The notes: a model not told the origin generated them from the sequence alone. A DNA stretch of 64,000 nucleotides from a virus (IMGVR_UViG_3300019757_000093:1-64000), one strand, 5' to 3'; shown: positions 18,490 through 61,332, numbered from the stretch's first letter. Numbers and translations: made by a program.

Positions 18490-19236
18490 ATGTCATTAAA
18501 CGATTCTTATACCTTTTACGACGAAAACGACGTATCCTATATTCCACCTACCTCTGTTACTCCCCAACTACCAGAACCTAGAACTATTATGATTCATGAA
18601 TTAACACAGGAAGTAATGGACATATTAACCCAGTATTCTAGAAGTACTGATATTTTTACATTCGATGATGGTTTATATAGTAATTATATGAATTATAGTT
18701 TACTTAGTGCTTTTCATAATGAAAAAATATTTTTTTACAATTCGGGGATTTTAAGGAGTAGGGAGATACCTCCAAAGTCATCAGTTATTAAAGCGGCGGA
18801 AGCCCATAGGAAATTAAAAATGGATGGAACTGATGACTTTCTTGATTATATGAATCCAGACGAATTACTTTATCTAGATACATGTACTAATAATTTTTTA
18901 GGTAGTCACGGACATACTCATAATAAAATTTGCGAAACATCATTAGTTCCAAAAATTCTTAAAAAACCAAATGGTATGTCTTTAAATTTAGGTATTAAAG
19001 ATAGTTTTGAAGCTATTAAAGAAGATATTCAAAAGAGTGTTAATTATCATTATGTATTAACTGGAACTATTCAAACTAGATTTTGCTTTCCTTATAATAT
19101 AGAAAATAATATAGTTAAAAAATTAACCAAAGAGGCTGTAAAAAATCTAGAGAAAAAATTAGGTCGTAACCAAGAATTAGATATAATATTTTATGGTCAA
19201 AATAGAATAAATGTATATGATTTACCAAACTTATAA
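18490..19236 (+). CDS. Polysaccharide deacetylase-like (NodB fold) protein
   Basis: The NodB motifs are present in order: TFDDG (57-61), with the catalytic and metal aspartates; HGHTH (140-144), with the metal histidines; and RFCFPYN (197-203), the substrate-groove motif. Such enzymes remove N- or O-acetyl groups from polysaccharides or amino sugars with a divalent metal. The length of 248 residues suits a single-domain cytoplasmic form, with no signal peptide. The start follows TTTAAAGGAAAAAC. It heads a five-gene island whose products all look like sugar-modifying or regulatory enzymes, so it probably works on a nucleotide sugar or a glycan of the phage or host. Confidence 0.8.
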   Translation: MSLNDSYTFYDENDVSYIPPTSVTPQLPEPRTIMIHELTQEVMDILTQYSRSTDIFTFDDGLYSNYMNYSLLSAFHNEKIFFYNSGILRSREIPPKSSVIKAAEAHRKLKMDGTDDFLDYMNPDELLYLDTCTNNFLGSHGHTHNKICETSLVPKILKKPNGMSLNLGIKDSFEAIKEDIQKSVNYHYVLTGTIQTRFCFPYNIENNIVKKLTKEAVKNLEKKLGRNQELDIIFYGQNRINVYDLPNL

Positions 19237-19247
19237 AAGGAAAAAGA

Positions 19248-20057
19248 ATGAGCAAAGCGAATAATATAGCGAGAGCTAATGGGCAGATACTTGGAGGTAC
19301 CCCAATAATGGAAAGTACTAAAAAAACAATATTTTTTATTGGAGAATATACATATCATGGTCAAGTTATTAAAGATAACTTAGCAGCTGCTGGGCATACG
19401 ATAGTATGTTATGATGAAAACCTAGTTAACAGAATTGCCTCTAAGAAAGAAATAAAGAATGGACCTAAATTTGATTTAGTTATTTATTTTCCTACTTATA
19501 GTAATGAAATAGTTAGTAAAAATTATTGTCAAGATAAAGAAAATAAAAGAAGTTATATCGAAGATATGATGATATCATTTGAAAATGTTTATAAATTTGT
19601 AAAGCATTCTAAAGCGGATTTTGTACACGCGGATTTAAATTTTACTGAAGTTTACTCTGATTTTAAAGAGGCTTTATTGAATAACGATTTAACCGATATT
19701 CATAAATTTGAAATAAATAAAGGATTATGTCATTACGCTAAAGAATTATTTAGTGCTTTAGATTGTAAATCTCTTCAATTAAATATTCCTACTGTTATTA
19801 GCTCAATCGTTAATGATTATCAATGGTATCCCCTTTATAAAGCAAGTCAAGAAAAAGATATGGAATTATTAAAAGCTTATTACGAAAGAGGAAATGGAGA
19901 CGTTCAAGTACTTAGTTTTGATAATTACAGAACAACTACATTAGGTAAAATATTTAATTTTATTAGAAAACCCAAGAATACTGTTTTTGATTATCCTAGT
20001 GTAAAGATGCCTTTTAATGAGGTAATACAAAGGATACAATATGGTTTTTGGGATTAG
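19248..20057 (+). CDS. Atypical SDR/Rossmann-fold protein
   Basis: The 269-residue protein has an N-terminal Rossmann pattern after a 25-residue extension: a strand, then IGEYTYHGQVI (31-41) where GxxGxxG would be, then AGHTIVCYDE. The catalytic YxxxK is not conserved; the corresponding place reads HYAKELF. It therefore looks like an atypical or inactive relative of the NAD-dependent epimerase/dehydratase family, perhaps a partner of the proper SDR encoded at 21594. The end overlaps the phosphatase gene by 17 bases. Confidence 0.55.
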   Translation: MSKANNIARANGQILGGTPIMESTKKTIFFIGEYTYHGQVIKDNLAAAGHTIVCYDENLVNRIASKKEIKNGPKFDLVIYFPTYSNEIVSKNYCQDKENKRSYIEDMMISFENVYKFVKHSKADFVHADLNFTEVYSDFKEALLNNDLTDIHKFEINKGLCHYAKELFSALDCKSLQLNIPTVISSIVNDYQWYPLYKASQEKDMELLKAYYERGNGDVQVLSFDNYRTTTLGKIFNFIRKPKNTVFDYPSVKMPFNEVIQRIQYGFWD

Positions 20058-20850
20058 AATTAATAAATTTTTTGAATTATTTAACGAAGATGGTACATTA
20101 AGACCTAAATATATCTTTACTGATATACATGGTTGCTATGACACGTTTGTAGCATTATTAGATAAATTACCTAATAAAGGAATTGGATTAGATGTTATTA
20201 TTACTGGGGATATAGTAGATAGAGGAAATGATTCTTTAAAGATAATTGATTTAATTATAGAAAGAGGATACCTTTGTTTATTAGGTAACCACGAAGATAT
20301 GCTATTAAAATGGTATGGGCCGGAATTAGAAAATATTTATGGGGATACTTGGATTCAAAATGGTGGATACTTCTTAGAAAGAGAATTAACTTTATTAAAA
20401 AAATTTAATCCTCATAGATTTAATAAATATATGGATTTTTTTAAGAATTTAAAATATTATGCTATTCTTCCAGACGAATATAATATTAATAATAGAAAAG
20501 TTCTATTAACTCATGCTCCTAGTAATTATTTTTTTGAATTAGGAAATGCTTTATCAAAAGACGATAGATTTAATATGATTTGGAATAGAACCATTCATAA
20601 TGATATAGATAAGAATTACTTTAATATATGTGGTCATAATCCTAGTCGAATGTTCGAGAGAGTAAATCATCCTAATTTAACTGAAGAAAAAGTTTTATTG
20701 AGAGATGATCTGGCAAGTATTGATACTAGTTGTAGTTATGGCGAAATGCTAACTTGTTTAATTCTCCCAAGTAAAGAAATTATACAGCAGAAAAATGTGG
20801 AAGTTCCAGATAGAACAGAAGTACAACAAACAAGAGGTTATAATGGATAA
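20041..20850 (+). CDS. PP2A-like serine/threonine protein phosphatase (metallophosphoesterase)
   Basis: The complete metal-binding motif set is present: DIHG (28-31), GDIVDRG (56-62), GNHE (82-85), LTHAP (156-160) and CGHNP (197-201). This is the phage lambda phosphatase/PP2A arrangement, which removes phosphate from proteins or small phosphoesters using two metal ions. The start lies inside the preceding gene and has the ribosome binding site AAAGGATACAAT. Placed among sugar enzymes it may dephosphorylate a sugar intermediate or a host protein. Confidence 0.85.
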   Translation: MVFGIRINKFFELFNEDGTLRPKYIFTDIHGCYDTFVALLDKLPNKGIGLDVIITGDIVDRGNDSLKIIDLIIERGYLCLLGNHEDMLLKWYGPELENIYGDTWIQNGGYFLERELTLLKKFNPHRFNKYMDFFKNLKYYAILPDEYNINNRKVLLTHAPSNYFFELGNALSKDDRFNMIWNRTIHNDIDKNYFNICGHNPSRMFERVNHPNLTEEKVLLRDDLASIDTSCSYGEMLTCLILPSKEIIQQKNVEVPDRTEVQQTRGYNG

Positions 20851-21583
20851 ACATATACATATACTAGCGGCTCATTTAGATGATATTGAAATATCTTTAT
20901 TTGGATATCTTCAAAGAGAGATTAAAGAAGCGGATATTGGGGAATATAAATTATATATTAATACTTATATATGTAGTGCTGGATTAGCTAAAGATGGATA
21001 CATATCTCAAAGAAGAGGTGAAGTATATATTGAAAATTTAGAAAGTATTTTTGATTGTAAAAGTAACGATGAAGAGGAGGATACTTTATTTCTAAAAGAT
21101 AATAAAGAAGATTCCCCTGATTTAATTAATGGTAATTGTGTTATAGAAGCATATGAAATAGATTTATTATTTCATGACAATATATCTTCCATAAAAAAAG
21201 AATGCGAAACATTTATCAGCAATGGATATTCTTATAGTGAAGATAGTATTAATGTATTAATATATAATAGTCTAGATATTCATACTGATCATCAAGTTGT
21301 AAAGAATATCGGGGATGTTATTGCAAGACCATCTTCTCAAGGTGGGATGTACCACTGGGACGAGGTTAGAAATTTTGTAATACCAAGTAATGAATATTCT
21401 CAATATGGTATTGGTCCAATACCTCAAAATTCAGGGAACTATTTTTTAACTCTAACTAAAAAAGAGAAAGAAATAAAAAGAAAATGCATAAATAGATATT
21501 TTGAAATAGGCGTACTTAAAGAAAAAGTTTCTTTAAAAGAATTAAGTACAGAAAAACAGAATATTATATATATTCAAGAATAA
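20843..21583 (+). CDS. PIG-L/LmbE family deacetylase
   Basis: The residues AHLDDIE (10-16) and HTDH (147-150) are the two zinc-binding motifs of the PIG-L family (consensus [AP]HxDDxE and HxDH), whose members remove N-acetyl groups from N-acetylglucosamine-linked substrates. I choose the ATG at 20843, after AGAGGTTATA, rather than the earlier in-frame ATG at 20795, because the extra 16 residues are coded inside the phosphatase gene and lie outside the domain. It is the second deacetylase of the island. Confidence 0.8.
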   Translation: MDKHIHILAAHLDDIEISLFGYLQREIKEADIGEYKLYINTYICSAGLAKDGYISQRRGEVYIENLESIFDCKSNDEEEDTLFLKDNKEDSPDLINGNCVIEAYEIDLLFHDNISSIKKECETFISNGYSYSEDSINVLIYNSLDIHTDHQVVKNIGDVIARPSSQGGMYHWDEVRNFVIPSNEYSQYGIGPIPQNSGNYFLTLTKKEKEIKRKCINRYFEIGVLKEKVSLKELSTEKQNIIYIQE

Positions 21584-21593
21584 AGAGGTAAAA

Positions 21594-22799
21594 ATGGAAA
21601 ATGTAGAAGAGATTCAGGAATTAGTAACTGAATTAATAGACGAGGCTTTAATTGATAATAGCACTCCGAAAAAAACTAAAAAGGTTTATCCAATGGGTAA
21701 TAAAAAAGTTTTATTACTTGGAGGGAATGGTTTTATAGGGACGGCTTTAAATAAATATTTAACGAAAATTGGATATGAAGTTCATGTATTAGATTATACA
21801 TTTGATACTTTAAATAATCCACAAAATACTTATCAATGTAATTTAAATAGTCTGGATCAAACAACAGAAATGCTTAGAGTAATCCTAGATAAAACGGGAT
21901 TAGATGGATTAACTATTTTCCACTTAGCAAGTACCGTTGGACCAGAATTAATTAATATTGATAATAGTATTAATGATTTTAAAATACATTTTAATATTTA
22001 TGAAGCTATAAAAGGGGAAATTTTTAGAAGAGGAGAAACTCCACATAAAATGATTTTTACGGGGAGTTCAGAATCTTATGGGGATATTCCAGTAATGGAT
22101 GAGTCAAAAGGTAGTTTAGTTAATGTATTAACTGAAGGAGCTAGACCATTATATTCATTACAAAAATTAGCAGCGGAAAATATATTTTTAACTCAAACAG
22201 ATTACCCAGTAGTATGTACTAGACTATTTAACGTAGTTGGAAAGGGACAAAGAAAAGATTTTATTTTTCCTAAATTAACGGATGTTATAACTAAGAATTT
22301 AGATTGTATTAGAAATTGTAAAATGGACTTTGAAAAATTTCAAGTACATGGAGACGGATTACAAAGTAGAAATTTTATTTCGATAGATGATACTGTAGTA
22401 ATTATGGAGAAACTTATTAATTGGGAAGATGATGAAGAACATATTGGTTTAAATGATTATCAAATTAATGATGGAATTATTAATATATCTTGTATTCAAA
22501 ATGAGAGTACTATATTGCATTTAGTACAAAAATTCTTAGAATTATTTAGAACTGTGATTCATAATGGTGTTAAATATCTTACCGATAAAAGTAATGATGC
22601 TATAGGGTTAGATGAATATGAATTAAATAGTCTAGAGTACTTAAAGAAAGTTATTGCTTTACCAAATGAAGATTTCATTGAATTTAAAGATGGTTTAATT
22701 GGTCAAAATAAAAGAAGTCCATTAGTATATAAACTATATAAAATTCTTAAATACAGACCAAAGAAAGATCTTAATACCTTAATAAATGATATGATATGA
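21594..22799 (+). CDS. NAD-dependent epimerase/dehydratase (extended SDR)
   Basis: Residues 43-49 (GGNGFIG) are the NAD(P)-binding glycine motif, TGSSESYG near 156-163 gives the catalytic serine, and YSLQK (187-191) is the catalytic YxxxK. Extended SDRs of this kind epimerise, dehydrate or oxidise nucleotide sugars. It carries a ~35-residue N-terminal extension before the Rossmann fold and is somewhat longer (401) than the usual 310-350. The stop overlaps the next ATG (ATATGA). Confidence 0.85.
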   Translation: MENVEEIQELVTELIDEALIDNSTPKKTKKVYPMGNKKVLLLGGNGFIGTALNKYLTKIGYEVHVLDYTFDTLNNPQNTYQCNLNSLDQTTEMLRVILDKTGLDGLTIFHLASTVGPELINIDNSINDFKIHFNIYEAIKGEIFRRGETPHKMIFTGSSESYGDIPVMDESKGSLVNVLTEGARPLYSLQKLAAENIFLTQTDYPVVCTRLFNVVGKGQRKDFIFPKLTDVITKNLDCIRNCKMDFEKFQVHGDGLQSRNFISIDDTVVIMEKLINWEDDEEHIGLNDYQINDGIINISCIQNESTILHLVQKFLELFRTVIHNGVKYLTDKSNDAIGLDEYELNSLEYLKKVIALPNEDFIEFKDGLIGQNKRSPLVYKLYKILKYRPKKDLNTLINDMI

Positions 22800-23485: not shown

Positions 23486-24304
23486 ATGTTTCAAATTATA
23501 TCTGAAGCTGCTTTTGAAACTAGAGGAAGCGTACAGATTCTAGAAGAAATGGCATTACCAGGAGAATCAAAGAGATTGATTTTCAGAGCTATTCTACAAG
23601 AAGCCGAAGTAGTAAATAATAATAAAAGAGTTTACCCAGCAGCTACATTACAAGCAGTTGTTCAACAATTAAGAGCAAAAGCTCAAGAAAGAAAATTACT
23701 TGGAGAGATGGATCATCCACAACCTCAAGGTGATAATAAAGCTAAACTTAAAAGAAGTAGTACTATTTTACTTGGTAACGTATGTGTACTTTTTAGAAAA
23801 TTAGATTTTATCGATGGAAAAATTATAGCAGAATGCGAAACATTAAGTAACAGAGCTGGAATGGATTTATATAATCTATTAAAAGATGGAGCAGTAATTG
23901 GATTTTCTTTAAGAGCGTTTGGAGAAACGGCTGATAGAGGTTCTGGAATAGTAGAAGTTATTCCATCAGGATTAAAAGCATTAACATTTGATGTTGTAGC
24001 TAATCCAAGTCATGATACAGCCGTAATTACAGAATTCTTGCAAGAGGGTACAGAAGTTTCTGAGAAAGAATTAATGTTATCTTTAGTTCAAGAAATGTCT
24101 GACTTTAAATTAAGTATGACTAAAACGAAAAGTGGTATGGTACTTGAAGAAGCACAAAGCTTATTCCAAGATATTAAACCAAAAATGAAGCCAAACGATA
24201 AAGTATGTATTAATGGAATTTGTATGAGAGGACCTATTGAAGAAACTGTAGATTATCTTATTTCAAAATCTTTTAAAAAACCAAAAATGATTAAACTAGT
24301 TTAA
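23486..24304 (+). CDS. Prohead core protease (T4 gp21-type)
   Basis: The protein has the serine protease signature of prohead proteases: GEMDHP (73-78, His77) and GFSLRA (139-144, Ser141), with DVVANPSHD further on. Such proteases assemble inside the prohead and cut the scaffold, capsid and internal proteins after (L/I)xE. The N-terminus itself has IISE|A at residues 5-8, which would fit self-processing. At 272 residues it is longer than T4 gp21, with an extra helical C-terminal part from ~190. It stands just upstream of tagged small proteins and the major capsid protein, as in T4-like phages. TATAAAATTA at 23466-23475 may be a late promoter. Confidence 0.85.
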   Translation: MFQIISEAAFETRGSVQILEEMALPGESKRLIFRAILQEAEVVNNNKRVYPAATLQAVVQQLRAKAQERKLLGEMDHPQPQGDNKAKLKRSSTILLGNVCVLFRKLDFIDGKIIAECETLSNRAGMDLYNLLKDGAVIGFSLRAFGETADRGSGIVEVIPSGLKALTFDVVANPSHDTAVITEFLQEGTEVSEKELMLSLVQEMSDFKLSMTKTKSGMVLEEAQSLFQDIKPKMKPNDKVCINGICMRGPIEETVDYLISKSFKKPKMIKLV

Positions 24305-24325
24305 TCTAAATTTCAAAGGAAAATT

Positions 24326-24787
24326 ATGGAGTTAAAGGTAAATAAACAATTACTTCTAGAAGGAGTTTTTACTTCTGGGAAAAAAGTTAATCATCCAGGT
24401 AAATTTATACCTGGAACGGCAGATAGAAAGAAACATCTATCTGCTGTTTCAGCACATGGTAAAGATAAAGCAGAAAGAAACGTTACTGCTAAACAAGCTA
24501 AAGATATTAGAAGTTCTCCTAGAGTACAATCTGCTAAAAAAAGAATAAATGAAGCAAAAGCTCATGGTATGAAGCCAAGAAGTGCTGATAAAGATACAAG
24601 TACTTTAGCCCATAATTTAGTAGCCGGCGGAATTTTAAAACAAGCGCATAAGCGATCTAAATCATTAGAGGGGATTGTTAAAGATGCTACTGATACTTCT
24701 AATAGAATTAAAACTAAAAAACATACTATTGGCGATGATAATTTAATGGATAAGAAATTATCCGGCAAAGATATTAAAAGCGTTTAA
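24326..24787 (+). CDS. Basic head protein with cleavable-tag-like N-terminus, 153 aa
   Basis: The protein begins MELKVNKQLLLEG and is then very rich in Lys, Arg, Ser and His, without hydrophobic core, like a DNA-binding internal or scaffold protein. The first 12 residues resemble those of the next two genes ([VI]NK-based, ending in ILE or LLE), and LLE|G fits the T4-type prohead protease cleavage rule. I infer a capsid-internal, DNA-contacting protein. No homologue is recognised. The ribosome binding site is CAAAGGAAAATT. Confidence 0.6.
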   Translation: MELKVNKQLLLEGVFTSGKKVNHPGKFIPGTADRKKHLSAVSAHGKDKAERNVTAKQAKDIRSSPRVQSAKKRINEAKAHGMKPRSADKDTSTLAHNLVAGGILKQAHKRSKSLEGIVKDATDTSNRIKTKKHTIGDDNLMDKKLSGKDIKSV

Positions 24788-24808
24788 AATAAAGAAGGAA
24801 AAATTAAG

Positions 24809-25051
24809 ATGGAACAAACATTTAAGATAAATAAACAACTTTTGATTTTGGAAGCTACTTCTATGTTAGAAGAGGCTAAACATAATCAAAAAACTGGTGC
24901 TGGAAGTACTCTTACGGATGTAACTCATTCCGGTAAAAGTGATAGTGCATTATTTAATTCCGCTTCTGAAAAAACAGTTGATGATAAAAAAGATATCACT
25001 GATGAAAATAAAGAAGAGAAAAAAGAAATTAATACTAGGATGGTAGATTAA
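24809..25051 (+). CDS. Small charged head protein with tag-like N-terminus, 80 aa
   Basis: The protein starts MEQTFKINKQLLILEATSML, with ILE|A as a possible prohead protease site at residue 15, and continues as a hydrophilic Lys/Glu/Asp/Ser-rich chain that is probably disordered. Its place between the protease and the major capsid protein suggests a core or internal protein. The stop overlaps the ATG of the next gene (TAATG). Confidence 0.6.
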   Translation: MEQTFKINKQLLILEATSMLEEAKHNQKTGAGSTLTDVTHSGKSDSALFNSASEKTVDDKKDITDENKEEKKEINTRMVD

Positions 25052-25359
25052 TGCAGGTAGAATTAGAAGTAAATAAATCGACTATCCTAGAAGAATTAAA
25101 CGCTAAACAATTCTTTGGAGTACCAGCCGCTACTGTAGGTGGAGGAGTAATTGGATCTACTATTGGATCTGGAGTTGGTCTTTTATCTGGAGTAGCAGGT
25201 GGAGAACCAGAAACCGTTGATGATATTGTTGGGAGTGGTGTAGCGAATGCTTTAATTGGCTCGGCTGTTGGTGGAACAGTAGGAGCTCTTGGTTCTGGCT
25301 ATATGGCAAATAATGTTTTAAGAGATAGACCAGAAGATCAAATGGTTCCACAAAAATAA
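25051..25359 (+). CDS. Glycine-zipper membrane-active head protein with tag-like N-terminus, 102 aa
   Basis: The protein starts MQVELEVNKSTILEE, so ILE|E at residue 14 fits a prohead protease site. Residues ~23-50 and ~60-88 are two glycine-zipper hydrophobic helices (GGGVIGSTIGSGVGLLSGVAGG and a second GxxxG series), a pattern of membrane-inserting or oligomerising peptides. I infer an internal virion protein that could act at the membrane during DNA entry. Two further glycine-zipper proteins are encoded at 30519 and 30962. Confidence 0.6.
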   Translation: MQVELEVNKSTILEELNAKQFFGVPAATVGGGVIGSTIGSGVGLLSGVAGGEPETVDDIVGSGVANALIGSAVGGTVGALGSGYMANNVLRDRPEDQMVPQK

Positions 25360-25631
25360 AACACTTTATTTTTAGTACTAACTAATGTCTAGAATAAACA
25401 TAGCAAAACATAATATTTAAATAGCCGATGCTATTTAAAATAGTTTGGGTTTATAGTCATCCCGCCTTAGGATGGTATAATAATATCATTACTACAATAA
25501 AACTTATTATGTACTCGTTAAGTTAATTACTTAAACGTTTTTGCAAAAACGCTTTTTAATTAGAAGCACATTAGAGCATAGCTCGTAAAAAATATAACGG
25601 GTATTTACCCAATTTAAAAAAGGAAGTCCAA
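25360..25631 (+). promoter_or_regulatory. Structured leader upstream of the major capsid gene
   Basis: The 272-nt gap contains at least five short hairpins in a row: TTTAAATAGC/GCTATTTAAA (25416-25439), CATCC/GGATG (25458-25474), the palindrome CGTTTTTGCAAAAACG followed by CTTTTT (25536-25557), GAGC/GCTC (25574-25584), and GGGTA/TACCC (25599-25610) just before the ribosome binding site AAAAAAGGAAG. No GAACTAAA promoter box is visible. The region probably terminates read-through and shapes the abundant capsid mRNA. No ORF or tRNA is visible. Confidence 0.6.
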
Positions 25632-27182
25632 ATGGCACAAATTTTAGATAATCTTATTATGGAAAACTACGATGTTTTCGTAAAAGAACATAGCACGCTT
25701 TTCGAAGAAGCTAGAACACCTTCAGAAATTCTTTTCGATGATTCATACTTTGAAATGTACGTTTCTCAGTTAACAAAAGGTCTTGAAGAAGCAACAATTA
25801 AGCAAATTACTCCAGTTCTTGATAGAGAAAGAAAAATGTTCCTTGAAGAGCATAATGCCTTATTAAGTTCTCCAGAAGCAATTGCTTATGCTGTAACTAC
25901 ATTCCCAATGTTAATTAACATCTATGCTGAGCCTCAATTAAGTAAAATTGTAACAACTTATCCTTCAGATGTTCCTACTTTATCTATCTCTAGAATCAAA
26001 TGGGTTTCTAAAGTTATTGATGAAAAAGGTGGAGTTACTGAATATATGTTCCCAACAGCTACTGAAATGGTTAGACCTAACTTTAAACAATTTAAAGTTT
26101 CTCAATCAGCTAATCTTTATACAGAATTAGATATCGCTAAAGGTGATTTCAGACTTTCTAAAAGAAATTTCAAAGTAACTGGTATTGATGTTGCAGTTGA
26201 CGATGGTTCTGCTGTTACTACAGTTAATGTTCCAGTAATTGCTATTGCAGGTGCTAGAGGTAACTTTACAGTTGAAGATTTCCTTGTTCCAGGTGTAACA
26301 GGTGGTGTTTATAAATTACAAGGTTCTGTAGACTTTGAATCAGGTTCTGTAACTTGGTCTGTAATTACTATTGAAGTTGGTGATAAAGCTGTTTCAGGTG
26401 AAAGCATTGAAGTTAAATTTAGATTATTTGGTAACGGTAACGGTAGAGGTGTTGTTAAATCAGCTCCAAAACAAGACATCATTGATGTTAATGCTGATAT
26501 TGAAGATTCTTTTGAAGTTGAAAATATCGAAGAAGTGATCCAAGATTGGTCTGCGATCTATAAACTTGATATTATTTCTGAACTTAAAAACTTCGTTAAA
26601 CAACAAATCAAGTTAAATAGAGATTACGAAATTGCTGATCTTTTAGAATCAAATATTCCTTATGCTATGAGTGTTGGACAATACAAAGAGATTGACTTTA
26701 CACAGTATACTGAATTAGGCGGATTCAAACCTTCAAATGTTCAAGATGTATTTAAAAATATTGTTCCTACTATTATGTCTCTAGTTGAGAAAATGAGAAA
26801 AACAAACAATATGGAAGTACAATACTTAGCTTGTGGTGTTGATGTTGCTGTTATCCTTAAATCATTACAAGAATTCGCAATTAAATTTGAGAAAATGAAT
26901 GGTGAATCAGGTGTTAATGGTACAGTTGGTGGATTCAATAAACTTGAAATCATCGAGTCTTATGCAATTAATGATGACTTAATGCACTTAGTATTAGTTG
27001 CTCCAGCAATGAACCAAAGTTCAATCGTTGAAGTATTATTTAAGCCTTTATATATCATTACAGAGACTACTAACTCAATCAGAAGAACATTCATTAAATC
27101 TAGAACATGGATTGGAATTGTTAGATCTGAAGGTATTGGTACAATCAGACTTAAAGGTTATGACGCTTGGGTAAATGTTTAA
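25632..27182 (+). CDS. Major capsid protein (T4 gp23-like, HK97 fold inferred)
   Basis: The 516-residue protein follows the prohead protease and tagged core proteins, as gene 23 does in T4-like phages, and its length matches gp23 (521 residues). The N-terminal ~65 residues are helical and acidic, like a removable delta domain; LFEEA near residue 23 and other xxE sites could be cleaved. A central beta-rich insertion (~170-285) and a C-terminal hydrophobic half follow. Codon use is visibly biased towards few codons, as expected for the most abundant virion protein. The start follows AAAAAAGGAAGTCCAA. Confidence 0.8.
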   Translation: MAQILDNLIMENYDVFVKEHSTLFEEARTPSEILFDDSYFEMYVSQLTKGLEEATIKQITPVLDRERKMFLEEHNALLSSPEAIAYAVTTFPMLINIYAEPQLSKIVTTYPSDVPTLSISRIKWVSKVIDEKGGVTEYMFPTATEMVRPNFKQFKVSQSANLYTELDIAKGDFRLSKRNFKVTGIDVAVDDGSAVTTVNVPVIAIAGARGNFTVEDFLVPGVTGGVYKLQGSVDFESGSVTWSVITIEVGDKAVSGESIEVKFRLFGNGNGRGVVKSAPKQDIIDVNADIEDSFEVENIEEVIQDWSAIYKLDIISELKNFVKQQIKLNRDYEIADLLESNIPYAMSVGQYKEIDFTQYTELGGFKPSNVQDVFKNIVPTIMSLVEKMRKTNNMEVQYLACGVDVAVILKSLQEFAIKFEKMNGESGVNGTVGGFNKLEIIESYAINDDLMHLVLVAPAMNQSSIVEVLFKPLYIITETTNSIRRTFIKSRTWIGIVRSEGIGTIRLKGYDAWVNV

Positions 27183-27267
27183 TCCTAACGGATTAAACAT
27201 CTTTATAATTTAATAATAAAATTCTTTGATGGAAAATAGTACTAGTAATAAAGTACGGAAAATGGAA

Positions 27268-27306
27268 CTTAGATATGGACGAATCCATATCTAAGATTTC
27301 CTGTCG
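27268..27306 (+). terminator. Hairpin with CCTGTCG box after the major capsid gene
   Basis: Perfect 11-base arms CTTAGATATGG and CCATATCTAAG enclose ACGAAT and are followed by TTTCCTGTCG. The box is the same as that following seven other late hairpins in this window. Confidence 0.75.
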
Positions 27307-27340
27307 TAGCTAAAATAGATATTTTTTAAAAAGGTATTAT

Positions 27341-28822
27341 ATGGATAAATTACAAAAAATAAATCTAAAACATAATTATAAATTTAAGTATATTTCTGAA
27401 ATAAAAAGAAACTGTGATATAATTAAATTTATATGTCCGGAACATGGCGAACAAGAAATGAAATATATTAATCATTTAAATAGTCCAACTGGTTGTAAAA
27501 TATGCAATAATATTATTATATCTCAAAGAAATTCTAAAAAGAGACCAATTGAAAAAAGCAGATCAATTAGATTAAATAATCTAAATAAAAAATTTAATAA
27601 AAAATTTAAATATTTAAATTTAGATAATATTACTGATTTTAATAAAGAATTATTAGATATAGAATGTCCAGAACATGGAAAATTTAAAATGGGGTATATT
27701 AGACATCTTAATCATAAAACGGGTTGTCCTATATGTTCGTATAAAATAAATTATCCAAATATTAAAAATATAGAATATTTAAACAATAAAAATTATATTA
27801 CTAATAACTTTATTCATAATAATATATTAGATACTATTGCTATTACTAAATTTTTTAATGTTGGTATAATAAAAATACATAAAATATTAAATAATTTAAA
27901 AATTTCGTATAAGAAAAAGATTGGTGGTAATAGTCAATTAGAACAAGAAGTATTAACTTTTATTAAATCCATATACTCTGGAAAAATAATAACGAACTCT
28001 CGAAAAATTATTACTCCACTAGAATTAGATATTTATATACCAGAATATAATTTGGCTATAGAATTTAATGGTCTTTATTATCATTCATACGGATTAAATA
28101 ATATTACTGATAAACAAGCTGATTTAAAATATCAGAGTACTAGACATTTAAATAAGACTAATCTATGCGAAGATAAAAATATAAATTTATTACATATTTT
28201 TGAGAATGAATGGTTAGATAATAATAAGCGAGAAATATGGAAAAGTATTATTAAAAATAAATTAAAAATAAATAATAATAAAATATATGCCAGAAAAACC
28301 ATTATAAAAGAAGTATCTATTCTAGATGCTAGAATATTTCTAGAAGAAAATCATATACAAGGTGCTGGAGCTATTGGTCCTATTAGATATGGTCTATATT
28401 TAAATGATACCTTAGTATCAATAATGACATTTGGTAAACCTAGATTCAATAAAACTATACCCTTCGAATTAATACGTTTATGTAGTAAAATTAATTATAC
28501 CGTAGTAGGTGGGGCATCTAGGTTATTTAAATATTTTAGAAAATACCATCCAGGTGAAATAATATCGTATGCAAATAGAAGATTTGCATTTAAGCATAAG
28601 AATATATATAAAACGCTAGGTTTAGAAGAAGAAGAAGTTACTGTACCAAATATGTTTTATTTTAAAGGAACTTCCGAATTATATAGTAGACATAAATTCC
28701 AAAAACATAAATTGATAAATTTTGAGCACTATTCAAAAGATAAAAGCGCATTAGAAATTATGATAAATAATGGATATAGAAGAATTTATGATAGTGGTAA
28801 TTTAAAATTTAAAACTAATTAA
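27341..28822 (+). CDS. Homing endonuclease-like protein with PD-(D/E)XK-type core
   Basis: Two Cys/His modules of the CPEHG...GC.IC type (about 44-65 and 106-140) form DNA-binding zinc knuckles. A nuclease-like core follows near 220-260: LELDIYIPEYNLAIEFNG, where the spaced acidic residues fit the PD-(D/E)XK/Vsr-like active site. The C-terminal half (about 325-480, with MTFGKPRF, GGASRLFKYF, SYANRRF) is an extra domain seen in phage-borne endonucleases. The gene stands alone between capsid and holin-like genes, the usual place for a free-standing homing gene, and its codon use is plainer than that of the capsid gene. Confidence 0.65.
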   Translation: MDKLQKINLKHNYKFKYISEIKRNCDIIKFICPEHGEQEMKYINHLNSPTGCKICNNIIISQRNSKKRPIEKSRSIRLNNLNKKFNKKFKYLNLDNITDFNKELLDIECPEHGKFKMGYIRHLNHKTGCPICSYKINYPNIKNIEYLNNKNYITNNFIHNNILDTIAITKFFNVGIIKIHKILNNLKISYKKKIGGNSQLEQEVLTFIKSIYSGKIITNSRKIITPLELDIYIPEYNLAIEFNGLYYHSYGLNNITDKQADLKYQSTRHLNKTNLCEDKNINLLHIFENEWLDNNKREIWKSIIKNKLKINNNKIYARKTIIKEVSILDARIFLEENHIQGAGAIGPIRYGLYLNDTLVSIMTFGKPRFNKTIPFELIRLCSKINYTVVGGASRLFKYFRKYHPGEIISYANRRFAFKHKNIYKTLGLEEEEVTVPNMFYFKGTSELYSRHKFQKHKLINFEHYSKDKSALEIMINNGYRRIYDSGNLKFKTN

Positions 28823-28851
28823 AATATTCCCTTCGGGGAATATTCCTGTCG
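28823..28851 (+). terminator. TTCG-loop hairpin with CCTGTCG box
   Basis: Arms AATATTCCC (28823-28831) and GGGAATATT (28836-28844) enclose TTCG, followed by CCTGTCG. TTCG is a stabilising tetraloop. A late promoter follows 14 bases later. Confidence 0.8.
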
Positions 28852-28864
28852 TTGAATTTACTTA

Positions 28865-28885
28865 GAACTAAAACTTATAAAATAA
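28865..28885 (+). promoter_or_regulatory. Late promoter, GAACTAAA-N3-TATAAAATA
   Basis: GAACTAAA (28865-28872), a 3-base spacer, and TATAAAATA (28876-28884) precede the ribosome binding site of the holin-like gene. The TATA part is close to the T4 late consensus TATAAATA; the GAACTAAA part is constant at five places. Confidence 0.7.
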
Positions 28886-28897
28886 GAAGGATTTGCT

Positions 28898-29362
28898 ATG
28901 GCGTTAATGGATTTTAGTCTAGGGGATATTGGTGGACTATTTACTGGTTTAAGAGAAGCAATTACTGGAGAAAAAATAGAAGACCCAGTAGAATTAGCTA
29001 AGATAGATTTACAATTACAAGAATTAGAACGCCTTGCAAATGCTGGTCAAATGGAAGTTAATAAAGTAGAAGCGGCCCATAAATCAATATTTGTAGCTGG
29101 TTGGCGCCCCTGGCTCGGCTGGGTATGTGGAATGTCAATAGCATATAGTTTTATTGGACAACCATTATTAGAATGGGGATTGGTTTTCTTCGATCATCAG
29201 ATAGCTGTAAAAACAGTAATAGATGGTTCTATAGTTTGGTCAGAGGGAATAAAAGTACCACAAATAGATTCGGAGAATCTGATGGAATTAACCTTAGGAA
29301 TGTTAGGTTTAGCTGGACTAAGAACATATGAAAAAACAAAAGGAGTCTCTCGTGAAAGATAA
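28898..29362 (+). CDS. Holin-like protein (3TM holin family)
   Basis: Residues 68-75 (GWRPWLGW) with the preceding acidic helix and KSIF are the hallmark of the 3TM holin family first described from gene transfer agents. Hydrophobic segments lie at ~71-97 and ~128-144. The N-terminal 60 residues are a soluble amphipathic helix. A role in membrane permeabilisation at lysis is inferred from the family, although its position among head genes would also allow a structural role. The start follows GAAGGATTTGCT, and a late promoter lies directly upstream. Confidence 0.7.
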   Translation: MALMDFSLGDIGGLFTGLREAITGEKIEDPVELAKIDLQLQELERLANAGQMEVNKVEAAHKSIFVAGWRPWLGWVCGMSIAYSFIGQPLLEWGLVFFDHQIAVKTVIDGSIVWSEGIKVPQIDSENLMELTLGMLGLAGLRTYEKTKGVSRER

Positions 29363-29876
29363 ATTTTGTAATAATTGCAGTACTCCTTTAATTATTAATA
29401 TTAATTGGAAAGAATATCATCAAAAAAATTGGATTAATACGTGTACTGTTTGTATTAATAAAAAAAATAAAATTGAGGCTAGAAAAAAGTATAAAAAGAA
29501 TAAAGAAAAATTTATTTCCTCTAGTAAAAAATGCCAACTGAAATTAAAAAATAATAATCCCAAGCTTTATAAAGCTAGAGAAATGAGACAATCAGCTAAA
29601 GGAAGATCTAAAAAGAAAAATTTAGATTTTAATATTACAGTTGAAGATATTTATTCTATTATGCCAGACTATTGCCCAATTTTAAAATCTAAATTAACAT
29701 ATTCTGGAAATAAAGATAAGAATTCTGCTTCCTTAGATAGAATCGATAGTTCGAAAGGATATACTAAAGAAAATATTCAAATAATATCTCAATTAGCAAA
29801 TATGATGAAAAGCAATTCTAATGAAGAGGAACAATTACTTTTCGCAAATTATATATTTAACAAAAATAAGAAATAA
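29352..29876 (+). CDS. HNH-type homing endonuclease
   Basis: The protein opens with CNNCSTPL and CTVC (zinc-type pairs), then a Lys-rich linker, and ends with the HNH-family block DYCPILKSKLTY...SASLDRIDSSKGYTKENIQI (about 114-150 in this numbering), where D-R-I-D and N are the usual conserved residues of phage HNH nucleases. I choose GTG at 29352 because GGAG stands 6 bases before it; the in-frame ATG at 29328 lies within the holin-like gene. It overlaps the end of that gene by 11 bases. Confidence 0.75.
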   Translation: MKDKFCNNCSTPLIININWKEYHQKNWINTCTVCINKKNKIEARKKYKKNKEKFISSSKKCQLKLKNNNPKLYKAREMRQSAKGRSKKKNLDFNITVEDIYSIMPDYCPILKSKLTYSGNKDKNSASLDRIDSSKGYTKENIQIISQLANMMKSNSNEEEQLLFANYIFNKNKK

Positions 29877-29899
29877 AATAAAATAAAAGAAGGAATATT

Positions 29900-30505
29900 A
29901 TGATAAGTTATGATACATTACCAAAAGAAATAAATGAGGCTTTTACTGAAGGACTTAGACTTAGAAAAGCTAATAAAAAGAAACCAGAAATTAAAGAAGC
30001 TTTAGACGAACTAAAGAAAATTACATCTTGGTATGATTGGGACTATACTAAAAATACAAATTTAGCTAATAAGAAAATGGTTTATATTTTTCTTAATCAA
30101 TTAACTAAAGATAATTTTAAATGCGATAATCCAAAATGTACGGAATTAACTCGGATTAATTCTGATATTACTAAAAATAGTTATTGTAGTAAAAAATGTA
30201 AAGATCAAGATTATAAAGAAATGAAAGAAGCATCTGAAAAAGTTTTTAAGAAAATTAGAGAAGCTAAAGAAAAAGAAATAGTAACTCCAGAAAAGCCAGC
30301 AGTAATTGCGGAATTGACTCAAAAACAATTAAATGTATTTAAGAGAAATTGTAAACTTAAATTTAATGCAAAATATGGTTATGCTAAAACTTATTTTAAA
30401 AGTACTCAAGATTTAGTAATTGTAAATTGTCCAGAACATGGAGATTTTGAAGTACAAGTAATGGATCATTTACGAGGAATTGGATGTCCAGAATGTTTGA
30501 ATTAA
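29900..30505 (+). CDS. Zinc-knuckle protein related to homing-endonuclease DNA-binding domains, 201 aa
   Basis: It contains one Cys cluster near 75-100 (CDNPKCTEL...YCSKKC) and at the C-terminus one CPEHGDFEVQ...GCPEC module, the same as the repeats in the endonucleases at 27341, 60598 and 63537. No nuclease residues are seen, so it is either a remnant of an endonuclease gene or a DNA-binding protein made from the same module. The start follows AGAAGGAATATT. Confidence 0.55.
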   Translation: MISYDTLPKEINEAFTEGLRLRKANKKKPEIKEALDELKKITSWYDWDYTKNTNLANKKMVYIFLNQLTKDNFKCDNPKCTELTRINSDITKNSYCSKKCKDQDYKEMKEASEKVFKKIREAKEKEIVTPEKPAVIAELTQKQLNVFKRNCKLKFNAKYGYAKTYFKSTQDLVIVNCPEHGDFEVQVMDHLRGIGCPECLN

Positions 30506-30518
30506 TAAAGGGAAAAAA

Positions 30519-30947
30519 ATGAAGAGATCTATTTTAATAATAGAAAATCATTTATATCAAGCCGGGAATGGTGTTAATAATGGATTGACTCATGCCTCTC
30601 GTAAAAGTCATAATGCTTTGGTAAATCATTTACCAATAGAAAAATTAGTTGATTTAAATGATGAAAAAGAAATTATAGATGGTATGGGTGGAAAAAATAG
30701 ATACATAGCCAATACTAGCAATACTTATAAATTATTAGGCTCTGTTGGTGGTGCTAGTGCTGGGGTTAAAGCTGGTTTAGAATCTGGGGAATTATACGCT
30801 GATCCGGACGAACCTACTCTAGCCCTGGATTTAGCTGCTGGAGCTGCTGGATTCTTAGGTGGTGGTTATTTAGGTTCTAAATTTGGAAAAGATTATGGAA
30901 ACGCGTTAAGTACCAAAACATATAATACTATATATGATAAAAAATAA
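30519..30947 (+). CDS. Glycine-zipper head protein with tag-like N-terminus, 142 aa
   Basis: It starts MKRSILIIENHLYQAG, giving a possible IIE|N prohead protease site at residue 9. After a hydrophilic middle, residues ~70-85 and ~106-130 are Gly/Ala-rich helices (VGGASAGVKAG and AAGAAGFLGGGYLGSKFG) in glycine-zipper spacing, similar in style to the proteins at 25051 and 30962. Probably an internal virion protein that can associate with membranes or itself. No known homologue is recognised. Confidence 0.55.
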   Translation: MKRSILIIENHLYQAGNGVNNGLTHASRKSHNALVNHLPIEKLVDLNDEKEIIDGMGGKNRYIANTSNTYKLLGSVGGASAGVKAGLESGELYADPDEPTLALDLAAGAAGFLGGGYLGSKFGKDYGNALSTKTYNTIYDKK

Positions 30948-30961
30948 AGGAAGGAAAATAT

Positions 30962-31618
30962 ATGCAAAATATACAAAATATAGCTAATCCAGAATTAGAT
31001 TATGGATTACATTCTAAACAACAAGCCGATGTATCTGCTAATAATAAAGATAGATTAGGTTCCGCTTTATTAGGAACTGGAATATTAGGTGGAACTGGTT
31101 ATTTAGGTTATCAGGGTTATCAACACTTCGATGTAGAAGATCCAGCAAGACTAGCTGGTAAAGGAGCAAAAGGAGTAGTTAATGGTGTAACTACTGGTAG
31201 CGAAAATTTAAAAGATACTGGAATAAAAGTCGGTAAAGGTATTTATAATGTGGGTACTGAATTAATAGATGATGCTAAAAGAGCTGCTGGTGCCGTAGTA
31301 AAAGGTTATCAAGAATCGAAAGAAATTGATTTAAAGCAAGTTCTTCTTAATGAGAATTATGTTTCTCCTGCGACTGGTAAAATTAATTTTAATAAAGTTG
31401 CTTCTGATGTAAAGAATAATGCGGGGTTGATAGCTGGAGCGGGGGTTCTTGGTTTAGGAACATTAGCTGGAATGGAAGATCAACCAGATGCAAACACAGG
31501 TGTTAAAGCTATGGGAGCTGGATTAATGGGAGCTGCTGGTGCCGGAATTGGTCATGTTATTCATTCGCAAGTTAAAAAGAATAACCAATTGCCTTCAGAA
31601 CCAAGATATTCTTATTAG
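30962..31618 (+). CDS. Glycine-zipper head protein, 218 aa
   Basis: The first zipper is at ~32-52 (LGSALLGTGILGGTGYLGYQGY) and the second at ~153-200 (AGLIAGAGVLGLGTLAG...MGAGLMGAAGAGIG). Between them lies KQVLLNENYVSP, which resembles the tag-like N-termini of neighbouring proteins (LNE|N), so the protein could be a fusion of two such units. A role as ejected or capsid-internal protein is inferred. The start follows GGAAGGAAAATAT. Confidence 0.5.
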   Translation: MQNIQNIANPELDYGLHSKQQADVSANNKDRLGSALLGTGILGGTGYLGYQGYQHFDVEDPARLAGKGAKGVVNGVTTGSENLKDTGIKVGKGIYNVGTELIDDAKRAAGAVVKGYQESKEIDLKQVLLNENYVSPATGKINFNKVASDVKNNAGLIAGAGVLGLGTLAGMEDQPDANTGVKAMGAGLMGAAGAGIGHVIHSQVKKNNQLPSEPRYSY

Positions 31619-31626
31619 GTATTATT

Positions 31627-31968
31627 ATGATTTTAAATAATTCTCAATTAAGTTTTATTCAAGAAGATATGATTGCTACTAATGGTGGTGATCATAAAGG
31701 CGATAATGAGGGTATGTTAGCATCCAATGGTATGCTAACTTTAACTACTCATCAAGAGTATCTAAAAAAACATAAGTTAGATGATTCTATGGCAGAAGAT
31801 ACTTCTGAAAGCACTGATTTATCTAAAGAAGGAGAAGATCAAATTAATGGTGTTCCCGAAGATACGAAAAAGCTTAAAGAAGATGGTACTATGTTAGCAG
31901 CCGCGTTGGTACCAGCAAGTATTATTGGCTGGCAATCAGTAAAAGATAAGGTAGGATTTCATAGATAA
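31627..31968 (+). CDS. Small acidic head protein with tag-like N-terminus, 113 aa
   Basis: The chain begins MILNNSQLSFIQEDM; IQE|D at residue 13 fits the (L/I)xE cleavage rule. The middle is acidic, Ser/Thr-rich and probably disordered; a short hydrophobic stretch near 89-105 (MLAAALVPASIIGWQSV) is present at the end. It closes the cluster of tagged proteins and is followed by a TATAAATA element before the baseplate gene. Confidence 0.5.
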   Translation: MILNNSQLSFIQEDMIATNGGDHKGDNEGMLASNGMLTLTTHQEYLKKHKLDDSMAEDTSESTDLSKEGEDQINGVPEDTKKLKEDGTMLAAALVPASIIGWQSVKDKVGFHR

Positions 31969-60597: not shown

Positions 60598-61332
60598 TTG
60601 TCTATTCAAATAAGAAGAAATAACTATTTTAAAAAAGCGGAACGTATTCATAAAGATAAATTCTCTTATAATAAAGATAGTTATATTCATTCTAAGAAAA
60701 AAATAGAAATCTTCTGTCCAGAACATGGGAGTTTTTGGCAAAGACCGGATCTTCATTTATCTGGAAAGGGTGGGTGTAGAGGTTGTAATCCTATCAGTGA
60801 TTATACTTTTAAAAAAGGACATCGCCCTGCGAATACTCATAACCAGGACGATTTCATAAATAAATGCATAGAAGTTCATGGTAATAGATACGATTACTCG
60901 ATGGTAATATATAAAAATAGCACTTCCAAGGTACAAATTATTTGTCCAGAACACGGAAGTTTTTGGCAAAGAGCATCTGATCATAAAAATGGATGTGGCT
61001 GCCCAAAATGCTGCGAAAGTAAAGGAGAAGCTAGAGTTAGAACTTATTTAGAAGAGAATAAAATTTCTTTTAAACAAGAATATAGCTTCTCTAAATTAGG
61101 TCTATATAGATTCGATTTTTATTTAGAAGAATATAATCTCTGTATAGAATATGATGGTCGACAACACTTCGAAGAAGTAGCTTGTTGGGAACCCTTGAGC
61201 GAAGTCCAAAAGAGAGACGAGATTAAAAATAATTATTGTAAACACGAAGGTATAGATTTAATCCGTATCCCTTTTACTAAGTTTAAGTTAATAAAAGAAA
61301 TTTTAGATAATAAATTAAAGGAATTAAAATGA
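60598..61332 (+). CDS. Homing endonuclease with CPEHG zinc modules and Vsr-like nuclease domain
   Basis: Two DNA-binding zinc modules (CPEHGSFWQRPDLH...GCRGC at ~41-64 and CPEHGSFWQRASDH...GCPKC at ~118-139) are followed by a nuclease domain: YRFDFYLEEYNLCIEYDGRQHFE, then RDEIKNNYCKHEGIDLIRIPF. The D, E/Q and K positions fit the Vsr/PD-(D/E)XK fold. The start is TTG at 60598; no ATG lies near, and the AGAGG in the preceding gene may serve as ribosome binding site. The stop overlaps the PAAR gene start (ATGA). Confidence 0.75.
   Translation: MSIQIRRNNYFKKAERIHKDKFSYNKDSYIHSKKKIEIFCPEHGSFWQRPDLHLSGKGGCRGCNPISDYTFKKGHRPANTHNQDDFINKCIEVHGNRYDYSMVIYKNSTSKVQIICPEHGSFWQRASDHKNGCGCPKCCESKGEARVRTYLEENKISFKQEYSFSKLGLYRFDFYLEEYNLCIEYDGRQHFEEVACWEPLSEVQKRDEIKNNYCKHEGIDLIRIPFTKFKLIKEILDNKLKELK

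Follow-up and report, generated by a model that had tools for sequence, protein, structure and literature searches.

Proteins encoded by a virus record in IMG/VR and by its uncultured relatives share a short tag that exists on otherwise unrelated proteins, is restricted to N-termini and is lineage-specific in flavour. Across 13 related records, we counted 59 tagged proteins, whose bodies belong to 49 unrelated families. Judged from sequence, the tag is likely a cleavable capsid-targeting propeptide that works as in T4 but has a sequence of its own, and its putative cargo set is unusually large and varied. The docking partner, the cleavage, the capsid location and the ejection of the tagged proteins are what we infer on this basis.

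A common start in the head region and in related records

The stretch of DNA analysed here (the window; 64,000 nucleotides) is part of a 74,327-bp IMG/VR virus record (G000). Its head region encodes the following features.

23486..24304, + strand: prohead maturation protease (S77/S80, T4 gp21-type), by Pfam, PHROG and T4 gp21 similarity
24326..24361, + strand: tag MELKVNKQLLLE followed by GVF, start of ORF 24326; profile score 23.6 bits
24326..24787, + strand: tagged putative cargo 1, 153 aa, basic, pI 10.3; no family match
24809..24853, + strand: tag MEQTFKINKQLLILE followed by ATS, start of ORF 24809; profile score 15.9 bits
24809..25051, + strand: tagged putative cargo 2, 80 aa, acidic, low complexity
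25051..25095, + strand: tag MQVELEVNKSTILEE, start of ORF 25051; profile score 19.5 bits, candidate cut after E14 or E15
25051..25359, + strand: tagged putative cargo 3, 102 aa, Gly-zipper type
25632..27182, + strand: major capsid protein, by alignments, PHROG and Foldseek of a low-confidence model

The three tagged ORFs all have a plausible Shine-Dalgarno sequence and begin with [IV]NKx-hydrophobic-E, which across relatives extends to the profile M-x-L-x-[IV]-N-K-x-Φ-[LI]-[LV]-E. Searching IMG/VR turned up seven related capsid loci, with identities to the window capsid protein between 82% and 48%; the related records, in full or in large part, were retrieved and subjected to gene prediction. 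Contigs with the 82% identical capsid protein carry many unrelated ORFs that begin MILEINKxLLLE. In the window's and related records, 38 of 1,086 gene starts scored at least 15.9 bits on the tag profile, with the next best at 10.0, and none of the 3,826 internal-Met windows of the same records reached 10 bits. Motif-free comparison of all N-termini in G000 clustered ORFs 24326, 24809 and 25051 with a fourth tagged gene just outside the window, ORF 71694 (71694-72293; MELKVNKQLIIE followed by S; 20.7 bits), and such clustering, performed per record, recovered the tag in G000 and G001. A short N-terminal leader common to otherwise unrelated proteins, as expected of a T4-type capsid targeting sequence (CTS) system, is thus present. 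Most tags end in a match to (L/I)xE, and some have the variants LVE or VLE; more generally the end reads hydrophobic-x-E, mostly with A, S or E as the next residue, and the terminal E run gives way to A in 18 tags and to S in 9.

A preliminary description of this DNA had claimed that the products at 24326, 24809 and 25051 share a start ending at an (L/I)xE site, and had proposed looking for it elsewhere in the genome. The letters are present as quoted, with scores far beyond chance, and the search led to ORF 71694. Its broader claim, that T4-like targeting tags are used here by a new, larger and more diverse set of cargo proteins, gained from the number of families and records, from the likeness of the tag to protease and capsid sites, and from the occurrence of exactly one gp21-type protease in each large record covering the head region; it lost ground in that only three of the five products listed are tagged.

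The pattern alone is unspecific. Its DNA version matched bacterial genomes 102 times, the credible ORFs having mainly DnaN-like starts (MKLKINKDVLLENL), so that the evidence lies in the sharing of the tag by unrelated proteins within a genome. An initial DNA scan for MILEINK was abandoned, swamped by the unrelated internal MILEINKxGYQ of one frequent protein family. Among 50,697 named phage records, tblastn with the capsid protein yielded no match and the protease had distant matches only. We regard these viruses as jumbo-type phages, given the RNA polymerase beta-like protein encoded by the related contig G006 and the size of some relatives, which is above 270 kb.

Candidate head-maturation sites and known targeting leaders

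The protease scored above the cut-offs of both Pfam S77 (31.5 bits) and S80 (31.7 bits), matched phrog_207 (2.9e-24) and aligned with T4 gp21 in the catalytic region (27% over 154 aa, 1e-10). The motifs GE[ML]DHP and GFS are invariant across four homologs, and the roles of the catalytic residues are assumed to carry over from gp21. The protein starts with MFQIISE↓A (arrows denote candidate cuts), so that the ISE↓A quoted in the preliminary description is present; ISE↓A (residues 5-7) is one candidate self-cleavage site and a second candidate is ILEE↓M (residues 18-21), whose L19-E20-E21 (LEE) is invariant in four homologs. The capsid protein, putatively of the HK97 fold, matched phrog_20655, major head protein (E=1.8e-6). 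Its AlphaFold model is of low confidence (pLDDT 53) and finds phage capsids as best Foldseek matches, namely the heads of phi-Kp24 and P1 (both at E ~1e-7) and of T4 (probability 0.94), over an E range from 1e-7 to 0.04. The N-terminal LIMEN of this protein sits within NLIMEN (25650-25667) and, as LI[LM]EN, is invariant in seven homologs; residues 71-73 form a conserved candidate maturation site, [IL]EE, which we take to lie near the known T4 cleavage position 65. The tag end resembles the candidate cut sites of both proteins, LEE at the protease N-terminus and [IL]EE at capsid residues 71-73, and LI[LM]EN equals the rear half of several tags of the more distant relative G005.

T4 internal proteins carry an N-terminal capsid targeting sequence that is removed by gp21. 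The leaders encoded in the T4 genome, MKTYQEFIAE↓A (IPII, IPIII), MLKEQLIAE↓A (gp22) and MAKINELLRE↓S (gp24), follow the same logic as the tag with other residues. Like the T4 CTS (IPI-III, Alt), the tag is an N-terminal leader of 10 to 20 residues on unrelated proteins with an (L/I)xE end at a gp21-type site; like T4 internal proteins, the putative cargo is basic and poorly conserved, and a similar leader occurs on core and shell proteins. However, homology of the tag to MKTYQEFIAEA was absent by eye, with only the terminal hydrophobic-x-E in common, and we therefore do not class it as a T4 CTS homolog. The two systems also differ in consensus (NKxLLLE here, TYQEFIAE in T4), in the number of putative cargo families (49 in 13 records against a handful per phage), in the inclusion of a helicase and other enzymes, in the lineage-specific flavours and in the presence of the tag's rear half on the capsid protein. 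In T4, the front of the leader serves targeting and its last residues cleavage (PMC9026906), and we propose the same division for the tag by analogy.

Other phages offer partial parallels. In P1, the N-terminal 30 residues of DarB target this large antirestriction protein to the head (PMC9024508); the capsid model (pLDDT 53) also matches the P1 head, but the tag has a clear and short consensus, unlike the Dar proteins, for which none was found. In SPN3US and phiKZ, the prohead protease removes N-terminal propeptides from head proteins, some proteins are ejected with the DNA, and the paralogs gp53 and gp54 have N-termini in common (PMC5694885, PMC10052503). Likewise, the phages studied here encode a prohead protease and bear N-terminal extensions on putative head proteins; these, however, comprise 12 to 15 residues, lie on unrelated proteins and end in [LI]xE, whereas SPN3US and phiKZ propeptides are mostly 111 to 254 residues long and of AxE type.

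For the window trio only, a variant of the targeting reading is conceivable, if rather unlikely, in which the three products are core or scaffold components that are cut to pieces instead of delivered cargo. The trio does lie between the protease and capsid genes, where T4 encodes the scaffold gp22 (a position that also suits the targeting reading), ORF 24809 has a second candidate site (MLEE↓A, residues 19-22), and T4 gp22 begins with a similar leader. Nonetheless, the trio lacks a homolog even in phages with an 82% identical capsid protein, which is unexpected for a scaffold. A better core candidate is a separate conserved family, present in most lineages, that carries a multi-site leader of ~50 residues (LILEN...LLEEG...LVEEG) on differing bodies and is a candidate core or scaffold class. 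This family was not found in the window's record, and no gp22-type scaffold was identified, which speaks against the targeting reading itself.

A proposed route into the head

In the targeting reading, the front half of the tag ([IV]NK or the lineage's equivalent) would dock cargo on the prohead core during prohead assembly, and the gp21-type protease would then cut the rear half, which reads hydrophobic-hydrophobic-x-E and often ends EE↓A or EE↓S, so that the mature cargo would be set free inside the head and leave it together with the DNA. Fusion of a gene start to a module of ~12-15 residues would suffice to turn any gene product into cargo, which we propose as the reason why the bodies turn over fast and are so diverse. 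Whether this amounts to a general protein-delivery system we regard as evenly balanced: an exchangeable tag of ~12 residues imitating the capsid N-terminus would load almost any protein, helicases and enzymes included, for injection, and tag-receptor co-evolution would give each lineage its own code. If the tag works as a targeting propeptide, it would supply a sequence rule to read the head-loaded, early-injected proteins of jumbo phages from raw genomes, a set otherwise invisible because the cargoes lack common homology. The early counter-defence arsenal of uncultured phages would become searchable, comparison of flavours between lineages could reveal the binding partners of the tags, and new short tags to load proteins into phage heads would be at hand.

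The tag might instead sort proteins to a phage nucleus, a membrane or another phage-made place, not to the capsid, a destination that we consider unlikely. Nucleus-forming jumbo phages select imported proteins, these phages are of jumbo type with a multisubunit RNA polymerase, and several Gly-zipper cargoes could act in membranes. Yet the tag has a gp21-type site at its end, which matches the capsid N-terminus, the tags have K and E residues but no signal-peptide core, and eight records, some of them fragments, yielded no tubulin/PhuZ gene.

Lineage flavours and tagged bodies

Motif-free clustering uncovered new tag flavours in two more distant relatives, G005 (LDKRLILEN) and G013 (KIEKLIEE). 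G005 has a tagged cassette at 135-148 kb, adjoining a terminase-like gene, with tags that include MIYKINKGLILES, MKVQLDKRLILEN, MKVKLDKALILEA and MIVQTDKKLILEN; those of G013 include MLEQKIERLIEEA, MLEAKIEKLLEET, MIEYKIEKLIEEV and MNYEIEKKIEELIEG. A set with MKHIKLFEEF(I)xE in L268 is an initial hint at the code of a further lineage. Homologous cargoes from different lineages permitted bodies and tags to be compared. G009_49615 (MTLNINKEVLLEEV) and G013_150153 (MIEYKIEKLIEEVF) have 35% identical bodies and different tag flavours, and G001_22260 and G005_144215 have 41% identical bodies, each with the flavour of its own lineage. In both pairs, the tag is closer to unrelated tags of the same lineage than to that of the homolog; in a third pair, of a transglycosylase-like family, this does not hold. 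Taken together, tags of one lineage resemble one another more closely than they resemble those of other lineages (0 of 2,000 label shuffles), a likeness that is partly built in, since the tags were partly chosen by motif.

At the DNA level, the INK codons read ATAAATAAA in 28 of 30 tags of the NK lineages compared with 56 of 170 INK elsewhere, an excess beyond the start-proximal codon bias (ATA accounts for 52% of start-proximal Ile codons). Something beyond the protein sequence thus also contributes: probably recent copying of a 5′ module in the NK lineages, where the 5′ end of the tag may have an additional DNA role. This bias is what would speak for an element acting as DNA or RNA, be it a translation enhancer, a recombination site or a promoter, in which INK is encoded incidentally, an explanation of the tag that is nevertheless very improbable. 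At the L/V, L/I, L and E positions of the tag, the variation in codons is what codon usage would lead one to expect, the tag residues of G005 and G013 are specified by varied synonymous codons, other lineages encode different residues, and the conserved features are those of the protein motif.

The tagged bodies include an SNF2 helicase of 732 aa (Pfam 2e-27, with NCBIfam and PHROG concurring), whose G004 homolog lies close downstream of the capsid gene, the transglycosylase-like family (phrog_4067, 2.8e-4; leaders aligned), a TraB-like protein (Pfam 3e-4, below cut-off), a protein judged GNAT-like only by eye, as well as Gly-zipper and basic disordered proteins. A pI above 9 is more frequent among tagged proteins than among all genes (53% vs 27%; rank test on pI, p=2e-6), and their Gly+Ala content is higher (p=7e-11); by this composition they look like known internal or ejected proteins. 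G008_7712 is tagged, whereas its homologs G009_37411 and G002_42264 (~36%) begin without a tag, in line with a modular tag. Against the targeting reading, many tags occur far from head genes, e.g., adjoining an RNA polymerase subunit gene. Fast-diverging paralogs of one ancestor, recognisable only by the N-terminus, are hardly credible despite the tandem clustering of many cargoes in G006, G008 and G005; paralogy as the only explanation was rejected on the diversity of bodies from unrelated identifiable families (SNF2 helicase, transglycosylase-like, TraB-like, PRTase), with the helicase already contradicting it and some tagged proteins having untagged homologs.

The window cargoes had no convincing family match in Pfam and PHROG; ORF 25051 gave a weak YMGG Gly-zipper match below cut-off (E=0.027). 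PDB sequence searches with four cargo queries returned nothing useful, and assignment of the YHYS cargo family to ADP-ribosyltransferases was dropped (AlphaFold model, pLDDT 39). The tag of G007_53440, a phosphoribosyltransferase, is the only one in the portion of that record covered by the analysis and may be a chance match. The same record also encodes a related protease.

Downstream of the capsid gene, three further ORFs were considered.

30519..30947, + strand: possible member, 142-aa Gly-rich protein starting MKRSILIIENHLY; capsid-protein-type LIIEN motif, NK tag absent
30962..31618, + strand: 218-aa Gly-rich protein, untagged; residues 134-209 41% identical to tagged G003_10850
31627..31968, + strand: ORF with FIQE↓D, start MILNNSQLSFIQED; left out of the set

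The preliminary description had pointed to (I)xE near the starts of ORFs 30519 and 31627. The letters are there, but neither ORF carries the shared tag, and bare (L/I)xE is so common (mean 1.63 per 100 residues) that its presence near an N-terminus is no evidence. ORF 31627 was accordingly rejected as a tagged member; it matches no motif tested and its (L/I)xE is at chance level, which leaves that part of the claim unsupported. ORF 30519 is plausible on other grounds, lacking the NK tag but starting MKRSILIIENH, which fits the stricter motif of the capsid N-terminus, [LI][IL][LIMV]E[NS], found in 3 of 83 gene starts and 0 of 391 internal windows of the window's record. Through its capsid-protein-like ILIIEN, this ORF may belong to the set. 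G004_14343 (RYLEENHLW), encoded directly after the capsid gene, resembles ORF 30519 by eye.

Codon usage within the tag

The INK residues of the short N-terminal tag, a proposed capsid-targeting module, are encoded by ATAAATAAA in 28 of 30 tags versus 33% of INK elsewhere, as counted for tagged genes from the record holding the window and its relatives (G000-G003, G006, and G008-G012). This preference exceeds what codon bias accounts for.

Other shared N-terminal sequences

Proteins whose bodies differ have in common a second N-terminal leader of ∼50 residues, LILENKRDEYLIQVLEEGTTELESLKTKKYLTENLNLIEKILVEEG, which is distinct from the short tag and contains the capsid-type LILEN motif plus several LEE/VEE sites. 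Its carriers (record_gene start) are as follows:
G002_134488, G002_135852, G001_100
G011_6511/7916, G012_11853/11225, G013_35095
G004_234747, G005_141379/144698/147941

A further N-terminal motif, MKIR[LT]GFVSNSSSSSFI, occurs in three G004 genes (102687, 103133, and 129928) that diverge after it. In L268, a record carrying a distant protease relative, four proteins display a common leader of T4-like flavour:
gene 13833, MKHIKLFEDFVNE
gene 17907, MEHIKLFEEFIDE
gene 18179, MKHIKLFEEFSSE
gene 18765, MKRVKLLEEFIAE

Genes neighboring the protease and the cargo

A series of enzyme-like genes lies 5′ of the protease gene (window 18490-22799). Homologs of its epimerase-like member (window 21594) are located shortly ahead of the protease in G001 and G002, as well as, less closely, in G004. 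Tagged-cargo cassettes are immediately adjoined by an RNA polymerase beta-like gene (∼1030 aa), itself devoid of the tag, at three locations:
G006:12659-21136
G008:7712-15734
G002:51173-57547

Interspersed with the head genes are numerous endonuclease-like proteins, encoded in the window at 27341-28822, 29328-29876, and 60598-61332 and by many genes of its relatives; a large number of these proteins contain the CPEHG motif in repeated copies.
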